This document shows positions 56,492 to 58,548 of a stretch of DNA of 64,000 nucleotides, piece by piece. The stretch is taken from assembly GCA_003249645.1 (NCBI GenBank), contig QKIH01000050.1:1-64000 (forward strand), written 5' to 3'. The position numbers were made by a program, and so were the translations under genes. Position 1 is the first letter of the stretch, and the number at the start of each line of letters is the position of its first letter. The notes beneath the pieces are model-generated. The model did not search any database, was not told where the DNA came from, and saw only the letters and a list, made by a program, of their open reading frames with translations. Source of the DNA: Desulfobulbaceae bacterium (GTDB taxonomy: Bacteria > Desulfobacterota > Desulfobulbia > Desulfobulbales > Desulfocapsaceae).

Positions 56492-58174
56492 CTATCTTTT
56501 GGCCCTGTTAAGACAACTCAGGACAGCTTTTATCGATGCGACGATAATATCGGTATCAATTCCGGCCCCCCAGAACTTTTCACCATCATTCGTTTCAATT
56601 TCGATATACGTTACGGCTTTTGCACTTGAGCCACCATTCAGGGCATGCTCGTGATAACTGCAGAGGACGAACGTATCACCTATTTCTGATTTAATGGCGC
56701 TGCAAAAGGCATCAAGCGGTCCATTTCCGTGACTGGCAACGACTTTTACTTCACCATTAATACTGATTTCAGCTTCAATATCAGCAAAACTTGCATCTTC
56801 GCTGGAATCAATATGCCGCTTATTCACATGAAATCCTTTCAATCTGTAAGGGCCATTATTTGCAATATATTCCCGGTTGAATGCTTCACCGATCTCACCA
56901 TGTTGCAGTTCCCGTCCTTCCCGATCCGTAATCTGCTGAATAATCTTGCCGAATTCAGGATGCATCTGCTTAGGCATTTTATAGCCGAAATCATTTTCCA
57001 TGACATAGGCAACACCGCCCTTACCTGACTGTGAATTGATTCTAATAATGGATTCATACGTTCTGCCCACATCAGTAGGATCAATCGGCAGATACGGCAC
57101 CTCCCAGAAACCGGATTCAGTCTGGTTATACATATCCATCCCCTTATTGATTGCATCCTGATGAGAACCTGAAAATGCGGTATAAACAAGTTCTCCGGCG
57201 TAAGGATGGCGAGGATGCACATCCATACGGGTAACACGCTCATACACATCAATCAGCTTATTGATATTATCCATTTTCAATTCCGGATTCACCCCTTGCG
57301 TAAAGAGATTGAGAGCAAGGGTAACAAGATCGACATTGCCGGTACGTTCACCATTGCCGAACAAGGTCCCCTCCACTCTGTCGCCTCCGGCAAGCATGGC
57401 AAGTTCAGTTGCAGCAACGGCACATCCCCTGTCATTATGAGCATGCAGGCTCAAGATAACCGATTCTCTGTTTTTAATATTGCGGCCAAACCACTCAATC
57501 TGATCAGCATAAACATTGGGTGTAGACATCTCGACTGTGGCCGGGAGATTCAGAATTATCTGATTTTCAGGAGTAGGCTGGAAAACATCCATTACTGCTT
57601 CACATATTTCAAGGGCATATTCCATTTCCGTTCCGGTGAAACTTTCAGGTGAATATTCATATCTGAATTCCGTACCAGGATGTTTCTTTGCTTCAGCTAT
57701 GACAAGTTCCGCACCTTCAATAGCAAGCTGAACAATCTGCTCTCTGCTCATCTTGAACACCGCTTTGCGCTGCAGCGTAGAAGTTGAATTATACAGATGC
57801 ACAATTGCCTTTTTTGCCCCTTGAAGCGACTCAAATGTCTTTTTAATAAGATGCGGCCTGGCCTGGGTTAAAACCTGAATCGTGACATCATCGGGGATAA
57901 GATTATCTTCAATGAGTTTACGTGCAAACTCATATTCTACCTGTGAGGCAGAAGGGAAGCCGACTTCAACTTCTTTAAACCCGACCTCAACCAGCAGTGA
58001 AAAAAGTTCGAGCTTTTTCTCTAGATTCATTGGCTGCACCAATGCCTGATTACCATCACGAAGATCTACACTGCACCAGATCGGAGCAGATTCTATGGCC
58101 TTGCTTGGCCAGGTTCGATCATTAAGCTCAATCCTTGGATAAGGTTGATATTTTTTCACTGCTTCGGGATTCAT
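56492..58174 (-). CDS. leuA: 2-isopropylmalate synthase LeuA (long, type 2)
   Basis: 560 residues, condenses acetyl-CoA with 2-oxoisovalerate at the start of leucine synthesis. The catalytic HMGL-like domain has SVDLRDGNQALVQPMN near residue 35 and the metal-binding LHAHNDRGCAVAATELA, with GNGERTGNVDL. The C-terminal regulatory LeuA dimer domain (about 430-560) provides leucine feedback. The N-terminus (YQPYPRIELNDRTWP) and total length match the LeuA2 type found in Corynebacterium rather than E. coli LeuA. AAAGGAG precedes the ATG. Transcription passes through an attenuator upstream. Confidence 0.96.
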   Translation of the reverse strand: MNPEAVKKYQPYPRIELNDRTWPSKAIESAPIWCSVDLRDGNQALVQPMNLEKKLELFSLLVEVGFKEVEVGFPSASQVEYEFARKLIEDNLIPDDVTIQVLTQARPHLIKKTFESLQGAKKAIVHLYNSTSTLQRKAVFKMSREQIVQLAIEGAELVIAEAKKHPGTEFRYEYSPESFTGTEMEYALEICEAVMDVFQPTPENQIILNLPATVEMSTPNVYADQIEWFGRNIKNRESVILSLHAHNDRGCAVAATELAMLAGGDRVEGTLFGNGERTGNVDLVTLALNLFTQGVNPELKMDNINKLIDVYERVTRMDVHPRHPYAGELVYTAFSGSHQDAINKGMDMYNQTESGFWEVPYLPIDPTDVGRTYESIIRINSQSGKGGVAYVMENDFGYKMPKQMHPEFGKIIQQITDREGRELQHGEIGEAFNREYIANNGPYRLKGFHVNKRHIDSSEDASFADIEAEISINGEVKVVASHGNGPLDAFCSAIKSEIGDTFVLCSYHEHALNGGSSAKAVTYIEIETNDGEKFWGAGIDTDIIVASIKAVLSCLNRAKR

Positions 58175-58202
58175 TTTTTTCTCCTTTAGGCCGAAGTAGA
58201 AT

Positions 58203-58238
58203 AAAAAAAGGCCGCGGTTTTTAATAACCGCGGCCTTT
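58203..58238 (-). terminator. leuA attenuator terminator
   Basis: On the minus strand AAAGGCCGCGGTT (complement of 58226-58238) pairs perfectly with AACCGCGGCCTTT (complement of 58207-58219) around a 6-nt loop, followed by a run of T (complement of 58203-58209). It sits between the leader peptide and leuA, so it must be bypassed for leuA expression. Confidence 0.92.
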
Positions 58239-58266
58239 CAAGGTATCTGCTGTATGTCAAAAAAAC

Positions 58267-58338
58267 TTACAAAACACCCACCCTTGCCACGGCAAGCAAA
58301 CGAAGTAGTTCGAGTAGGAGTAGTAGGTTCTTTTTCAT
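58267..58338 (-). CDS. leuL: leuA leader peptide (leucine attenuator)
   Basis: 23 codons from ATG 58338 to TAA 58267-58269. Ten residues are leucine: positions 5-9, 11-12, 14-15 and 23, several as CTA, and three are valine. Ribosomes short of charged Leu-tRNA would stall here. The codons for residues 15-18 contain CCGTGGC (complement of 58286-58292), which can pair with GCCGCGG of the terminator's first arm (complement of 58228-58234) to form an antiterminator. The same segment forms a small self-hairpin CTTGCC/GGCAAG. This is the classical layout of amino-acid attenuation. Confidence 0.88.
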   Translation of the reverse strand: MKKNLLLLLELLRLLAVARVGVL

Positions 58339-58385
58339 TATGTTCTTTGTATTTGAATTAAATATTTTTTACAACTGTGCAATAT

Positions 58386-58414
58386 AGATAATCCTTAGAG
58401 AGCATACTTGTCAA
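58386..58414 (-). promoter_or_regulatory. Promoter of the leuA leader
   Basis: On the minus strand TTGACA (complement of 58409-58414) and TTATCT (complement of 58386-58391) with a 17-bp spacer. Consensus -35, weak -10. The transcript would start about 40 nt before the leader ATG. Confidence 0.6.
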
Positions 58415-58519: not shown

Positions 58520-58548
58520 TTGACATCTCTTGGTTCGGCCTTTATATT
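58520..58548 (+). promoter_or_regulatory. Sigma70 promoter for ilvB
   Basis: TTGACA (58520-58525), 17-bp spacer, TATATT (58543-58548): consensus -35 and five of six at -10. The 5'UTR is about 75 nt and shows no leader peptide or terminator. Confidence 0.78.

Follow-up and report, generated by a model that had tools for sequence, protein, structure and literature searches.

A conserved candidate leucine attenuator upstream of type 2 leuA in Desulfobulbales

In the window (the entire 64,000-nucleotide stretch of DNA that was analyzed), we identified a putative transcription attenuator on the minus strand, between the divergent genes ilvB (58630, plus strand) and leuA (58174, minus strand). The leuA gene (56492–58174), which is predicted to be controlled by this element, encodes a 2-isopropylmalate synthase of 560 aa that is of type 2, as had been proposed, scoring 782 bits against TIGR00970 (cut-off 697.4) and 868 bits against NF002991 (cut-off 455). 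It is preceded by the motif AAAGGAG (58181–58187), the likely ribosome-binding site. Further upstream lies a leader peptide ORF of 23 codons (MKKNLLLLLELLRLLAVARVGVL; 58267–58338), with the ATG at 58338 and the TAA stop codon at 58269–58267, and homologous leaders are present in Desulfocapsaceae and Desulfobulbaceae. In agreement with the original prediction, 10 of the leader codons are Leu codons (four CTA, two CTC, two CTT and two TTG), nine of them within the 11 putative control codons 5–15 (58294–58326), where the Leu positions are conserved in relatives. A run of at least nine Leu in 12 codons before a stop codon occurs once in the window, compared to 0.025 occurrences per 64 kb in dinucleotide shuffles.

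Downstream of the leader, the anticipated terminator was readily recognized: strand 3 (AAAGGCCGCGGTT; 58226–58238) and strand 4 (AACCGCGGCCTTT; 58207–58219) form a 13-bp hairpin (58238–58226 paired with 58219–58207) around the loop ATTAAA, which leads into a T-tract of seven T (58209–58203), the first three of which also belong to the stem. Strand 3 is common to the terminator and to an antiterminator, of which only a part had been described previously. The 7-bp pairing of CCGTGGC (58292–58286) with GCCGCGG (58234–58228), including one G-U pair, was found as claimed, but it represents just the outer half of a more extensive structure. This outer helix contains 8 bp (58293–58286 with 58234–58227), and its 5′ arm is the strand 2 core, GCCGTGGC (58286–58293), located within leader codons 16–18 rather than 15–18. 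The inner helices combine 58279–58268 with 58254–58241 and 58266–58264 with 58258–58256; the 5′ arm, strand 2′ (58268–58279), extends into the stop codon, and the 3′ arm is strand 3′ (58241–58254). The complete antiterminator fold has a predicted energy of −28 kcal/mol (z −2.7), and folding predictions recover the antiterminator for 71 of the 74 family members. Furthermore, we identified a third pairing that was absent from the original prediction, in which strand 1 (58315–58338), consisting of the leader start and the first Leu codons, would pair with the stop region (58281–58253) when the leader is free of ribosomes. The leuA ribosome-binding site is outside all the conserved helices found.

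The promoter originally placed upstream of the leader was borne out in its −35 box only. TTGACA (58414–58409) is backed by conservation, as 71 of the 74 Desulfocapsaceae members have this hexamer no more than 110 nt ahead of the leader ATG, compared to two expected from shuffling. The TATATT (58386–58381) that had been assigned as the −10 box is 22 nt away, which is too far; TATCTA (58390–58385), at 18 nt from the −35 box and with counterparts in some relatives, is the likelier −10 candidate, yet a poor one of weak consensus. Sigma-70 promoter scoring of the minus strand at the locus scored no match. On the plus strand, a good sigma-70 match for the divergent ilvB/ilvN genes is located at 58520–58548 (TTGACA, 17 nt, TATATT; 11/12), and no Leu-rich leader ORF is visible on that side.

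The element is widely distributed among relatives. In the group of genomes that we infer to be Desulfocapsaceae (f1), the full leader was found in 74 of the 81 leuA upstream regions, and in the group inferred to be Desulfobulbaceae (f12), including the cable bacteria Electrothrix and Electronema, in all 34 (33 through ORF search and one, in G199, through a covariance model; in G129, the terminator is masked by a run of N). The leader is also present in one genome of another group (G177, f5). Altogether, all parts of the attenuator upstream of leuA are retained across at least 15 genera and more than 100 relatives. Among the seven Desulfocapsaceae regions without a full leader, contig ends truncate three (G088, G069 and G018), and for G069, the covariance model detected a complete copy on another contig. 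The other four belong to the genus g16, in which G080 and G075 retain the terminator without the Leu leader, and G081 and G082 show neither leader nor terminator, apparently representing stepwise loss of the attenuator. In the genus g4, three loci (L156, L144 and L143, in G009, G015 and G017, respectively) combine the full RNA architecture with Leu-poor leaders, such as MYQQKIYSNILLSPQKKYPVVEIGEF, in which leucine sensing may be weakened or shifted.

The covariance model, which was built in this work and run on 152 genomes, separates the leuA elements, at 50 bits or more, from all other matches, at 41 bits or less, the exceptions below 50 bits being copies in G069 and G129 that are cut or gapped. 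Outside the group, it scored 47.5 bits on a leuA locus from Nitrospirota and 36.7 bits on one from Spirochaetaceae. Under the strict cut-off, type 2 LeuA in the order was detected almost exclusively in Desulfocapsaceae and Desulfobulbaceae, and among 198 genomes of the phylum, it was found only in the window's own genome, five genomes of f12 and one of f32. Therefore, type 2 leuA and the switch appear to travel together.

The alignment of related Desulfobulbales, which had been suggested as a check, showed conservation of the Leu-codon run and of the two alternative pairings, with compensatory changes. In the antiterminator core, 97.6% of the alignment cells are paired in the true register, compared to at most 62% when the strands are slid, and two positions are compensated in the 51-sequence alignment (C-G to U-A and U-A to C-G). 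The number of compensated pairs in the core is not above that in shuffles (163/500), but none of the 500 shuffles was as high in compensated cells or in the covariation score. For the terminator, 95% of the cells are paired and eight pairs are compensated, as many as in none of the 500 shuffles. Because strand 3 is shared by the antiterminator and the terminator, changes in this strand track both partners. In the genus g16, one C of strand 3 is mismatched with strand 4, yet is retained and paired in the antiterminator, which is direct evidence for a constraint imposed on strand 3 by the antiterminator.

The two further pairings were assessed by permutation. The inner antiterminator helix reaches −10.6 kcal/mol with its own partners, compared to −8.6 kcal/mol with permuted ones, and none of the 3000 permutations was as strong. 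Pairing of strand 1 with strand 2′ reaches −16.5 kcal/mol within genomes, compared to −14.3 ± 0.57 kcal/mol when permuted among genera (0/3000 as strong), although the excess is missing in the genera g16, g15 and g12. A protector helix formed by the Leu region and the strand 2 core was ruled out (p = 0.71). The predicted protector helix is one in which strand 1 pairs with strand 2′ rather than with the core, and this set of pairings is the three-state logic of classical attenuators.

The position of the RNA elements relative to the reading frame is nearly invariant. In 65 of the 74 Desulfocapsaceae leaders, 23 nt separate the start of the antiterminator core from the stop codon; seven exceptions are shifted by whole codons, and two leaders of the genus g17 are in a different register. 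In Desulfobulbaceae, the core starts 26 nt before the stop codon in 32 of 33 leaders. The Leu codons follow the same arrangement: in Desulfocapsaceae, Leu frequency is 22–86% at codons −20 to −12 and then 0–4% at codons −10 to −2, and in Desulfobulbaceae, it is 97% at codon −13 and 0–3% from −11 to −3. Hence, in both families, the core follows the last common Leu codon at a distance of 10 nt, whereas the distance to the stop codon differs by one codon. A ribosome with a Leu codon in its A site covers roughly the next 10 nt, so the core would be just exposed during a stall on Leu. On the upstream side, the ribosome footprint reaches about 15 nt beyond the P site, and the core lies 17–23 nt before the stop codon. 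The original view that a ribosome at the stop codon masks the antiterminator strand thus holds only in part: the inner arm would be covered, but the core would be covered at its 3′ edge only. The window leader is slightly untypical, as its codons 14 and 15 (positions −10 and −9) are Leu codons, and Leu occurs there in only five of 144 family cells. A ribosome stalled at these two codons would cover the core, whereas a stall at codons 5–12 would fit the model.

Codon choice is also biased. CTA accounts for 38% of the Leu codons in Desulfocapsaceae leaders, compared to 2.6–4.6% in genes (the reference being the genes of the window and the leuA genes of relatives). In Desulfobulbaceae leaders, the bias is toward CTT and CTC, not CTA.

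Taken together, the anatomy of the locus, its conservation, the fixed geometry and the compensatory changes support the originally proposed leucine attenuation. From this comparative sequence evidence, we estimate a probability of roughly 0.93 that leuA is controlled here by a classical ribosome-mediated transcription attenuator, with charged leucyl-tRNA as the sensed signal. The leucine response would depend on ribosome stalling and co-transcriptional switching, as follows. Under low leucine, the ribosome would stall on the Leu run and mask strand 1; strand 2 would stay free because the spacing of about 10 nt puts the leading edge of the ribosome just before the core. Strands 2 and 2′ would then pair with strands 3′ and 3 ahead of strand 4 synthesis, so that no terminator forms and leuA is read. 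With ample leucine, the ribosome would reach the stop codon and cover strand 2′ along with the edge of the core, strands 3 and 4 would form the terminator, and transcription would end near 58203. Without translation of the leader, strand 1 would pair with strand 2′, again resulting in termination. In folding predictions with the ribosome at codons 2–12, before strand 4 is made, the antiterminator has −26 to −30 kcal/mol, and with the ribosome at the stop codon, it is reduced to −2.4 kcal/mol. Because the inner hairpin together with the terminator (about −37 to −44 kcal/mol) is more stable at equilibrium than the antiterminator even with a stalled ribosome, antitermination would have to be kinetic.

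We considered whether the attenuator might instead respond to another signal, for example through a T-box that binds tRNA, a riboswitch or a protein, with the ORF being incidental. Strands 3 and 4 alone make a good terminator that would suit any such sensor, but the frame, the Leu positions and the stop codon all hold fixed positions with respect to the RNA core, a constraint that nothing but a ribosome translating the leader would impose. Moreover, the Rfam search of the window yielded no family at the gathering score, and no T-box (RF00230) was found in the window or in 58 genomes of the order, which makes this explanation improbable. Similarly low odds apply to control of leuA translation, a functional small peptide or a trans-acting leader RNA in place of transcription termination. 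Precedents are available, given that trans-acting leader peptides in other bacteria are described in PMC7298713, and that in the actinobacterial leuA element, the Leu run pairs with the leuA ribosome-binding site (PMC1262725). Here, however, a conserved intrinsic terminator with a T-tract separates the leader from the gene, the ribosome-binding site is not engaged by the conserved helices, and the C-termini of the leader peptides vary by genus (AVADTEGL, TVVETGEF and AVAGMAKF) while the RNA pairing is kept. Lone terminators are common in intergenic regions, so a Leu-rich ORF might by chance have arisen beside the ordinary terminator of an upstream transcript. This coincidence, the least credible of the alternatives, is already refuted by the conservation in more than 100 relatives with fixed spacing and covariation; besides, the neighboring ilvB is divergent, so that none of its transcripts end here.

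The predicted leucine attenuator resembles the enterobacterial leuL leader (RF00512), with which it shares a CTA-rich Leu run, an antiterminator strand in the ORF just after the run, a terminator with a T-tract and the location before leuA. The two differ in detail: the last CTA is 14 nt from the antiterminator strand in Escherichia coli (L199, direct reading) and about 10 nt here; the core is GCGCGG/CCGCGC in E. coli and GCCGTGGC/GCCGCGG here; the core is 31 nt from the stop codon in E. coli and 23 or 26 nt here; and, unlike in the enterobacterial leu operon, the LeuA encoded downstream is of type 2. The Leu_leader model of RF00512 aligned over its full length but scored only 20.7 bits (gathering score 50), compared to 145.8 bits for the E. 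coli control. The CTA preference in Desulfocapsaceae leaders resembles that in the Salmonella leu leader, where replacement of CTA with CTG reduced sensitivity (Carter et al. 1986, as cited in PMC1183508).

A leader peptide of leuA outside enterobacteria is not unprecedented, as Actinobacteria have a leader ORF with a Leu run upstream of leuA, combined with a different RNA element. This LEU element is described as a pseudoknot in whose base stem the Leu run pairs with the leuA ribosome-binding site, and data from Streptomyces are inconsistent with classical attenuation there (PMC1262725); in contrast, the element described here has a conserved intrinsic terminator and a conserved antiterminator. 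In other bacteria, leucine T-box leaders serve the same gene class and physiological signal, and a Peptococcaceae MAG with a related LeuA (L063) has a T-box upstream of the LeuA gene. The Termite-leu family (RF01730) produced a weak full-length match over the terminator and the ribosome-binding site (25 bits; gathering score 51). However, none of 11 loci with related leuA genes gave a match with E of 0.01 or lower, and the best match in the order is located among genes for cytochrome oxidase rather than at leuA; we therefore take this similarity to be a generic terminator match and reject Termite-leu as the same element. In the open-access literature, we found no earlier description of a leucine attenuator in Desulfobulbales. 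A proteobacterial survey by Vitreschak and colleagues (FEMS Microbiol Lett, 2004) is cited in PMC1262725.

Some elements with partial resemblance were observed elsewhere. Attenuator-like elements precede genes for class I SAM-dependent methyltransferases in a different Desulfobulbales family (L208; G128:C44:107327-107463) and in Nitrospirota (L037, 1840–2020), with the leaders MNTLNLLTTKCALAIGLWSIWRCIAVAQGGFR and MMHVKALQTRRLQIAAWLTIAVAEGGSS, the core GCCGTGGCT 23 nt before the stop codon, a GC-rich terminator and no clear control codon. At a Nitrospirota type 2 leuA (L034, 2769–2920), the leader MSIINLQNHLRLTKDAWHEAVAEGGFF shares this core and its distance of 23 nt to the stop codon but contains just three Leu codons; the terminator there is GGCCACGG. 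In a Spirochaetaceae MAG (L035, 2796–2945) and a Nitrospirota MAG (L026, 2834–2990), type 2 leuA is preceded by Leu-rich leader ORFs with terminators, which suggests that leucine attenuators occur at type 2 leuA in other phyla. A tentative and rather unlikely extension is that the leuA element is one use of a wider scaffold, consisting of the core GCCGTGGCT, a stop codon about 23 nt downstream and a GGCCACGG or GGCCGCGG terminator, that also occurs before methyltransferase genes with leaders lacking an obvious Leu run. If true, a fixed RNA chassis would carry interchangeable sensing codons. A phylum-wide search of 345 genomes for the pattern of core, stop spacing and terminator yielded matches in 23 genomes, which is not clearly above the backward control, and accordingly a wide attenuator class defined by this pattern is unsupported. 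Of the matches inspected, only those in G000 and G012 are leuA elements, and that in G474 is at the end of a coding sequence.

To conclude, leucine attenuation has been studied experimentally mainly in enterobacteria, and the element described here would extend it to Desulfobulbales, with their sulfate-reducing and cable bacteria, for which we found no such Rfam family. The alignment and the covariance model could seed an Rfam entry. With more than 100 natural variants, the geometry of the attenuator can be read statistically: the gap of 10 nt between control codons and core is the same in both families while the stop distance differs by one codon, which makes footprint-based models of attenuation directly testable.
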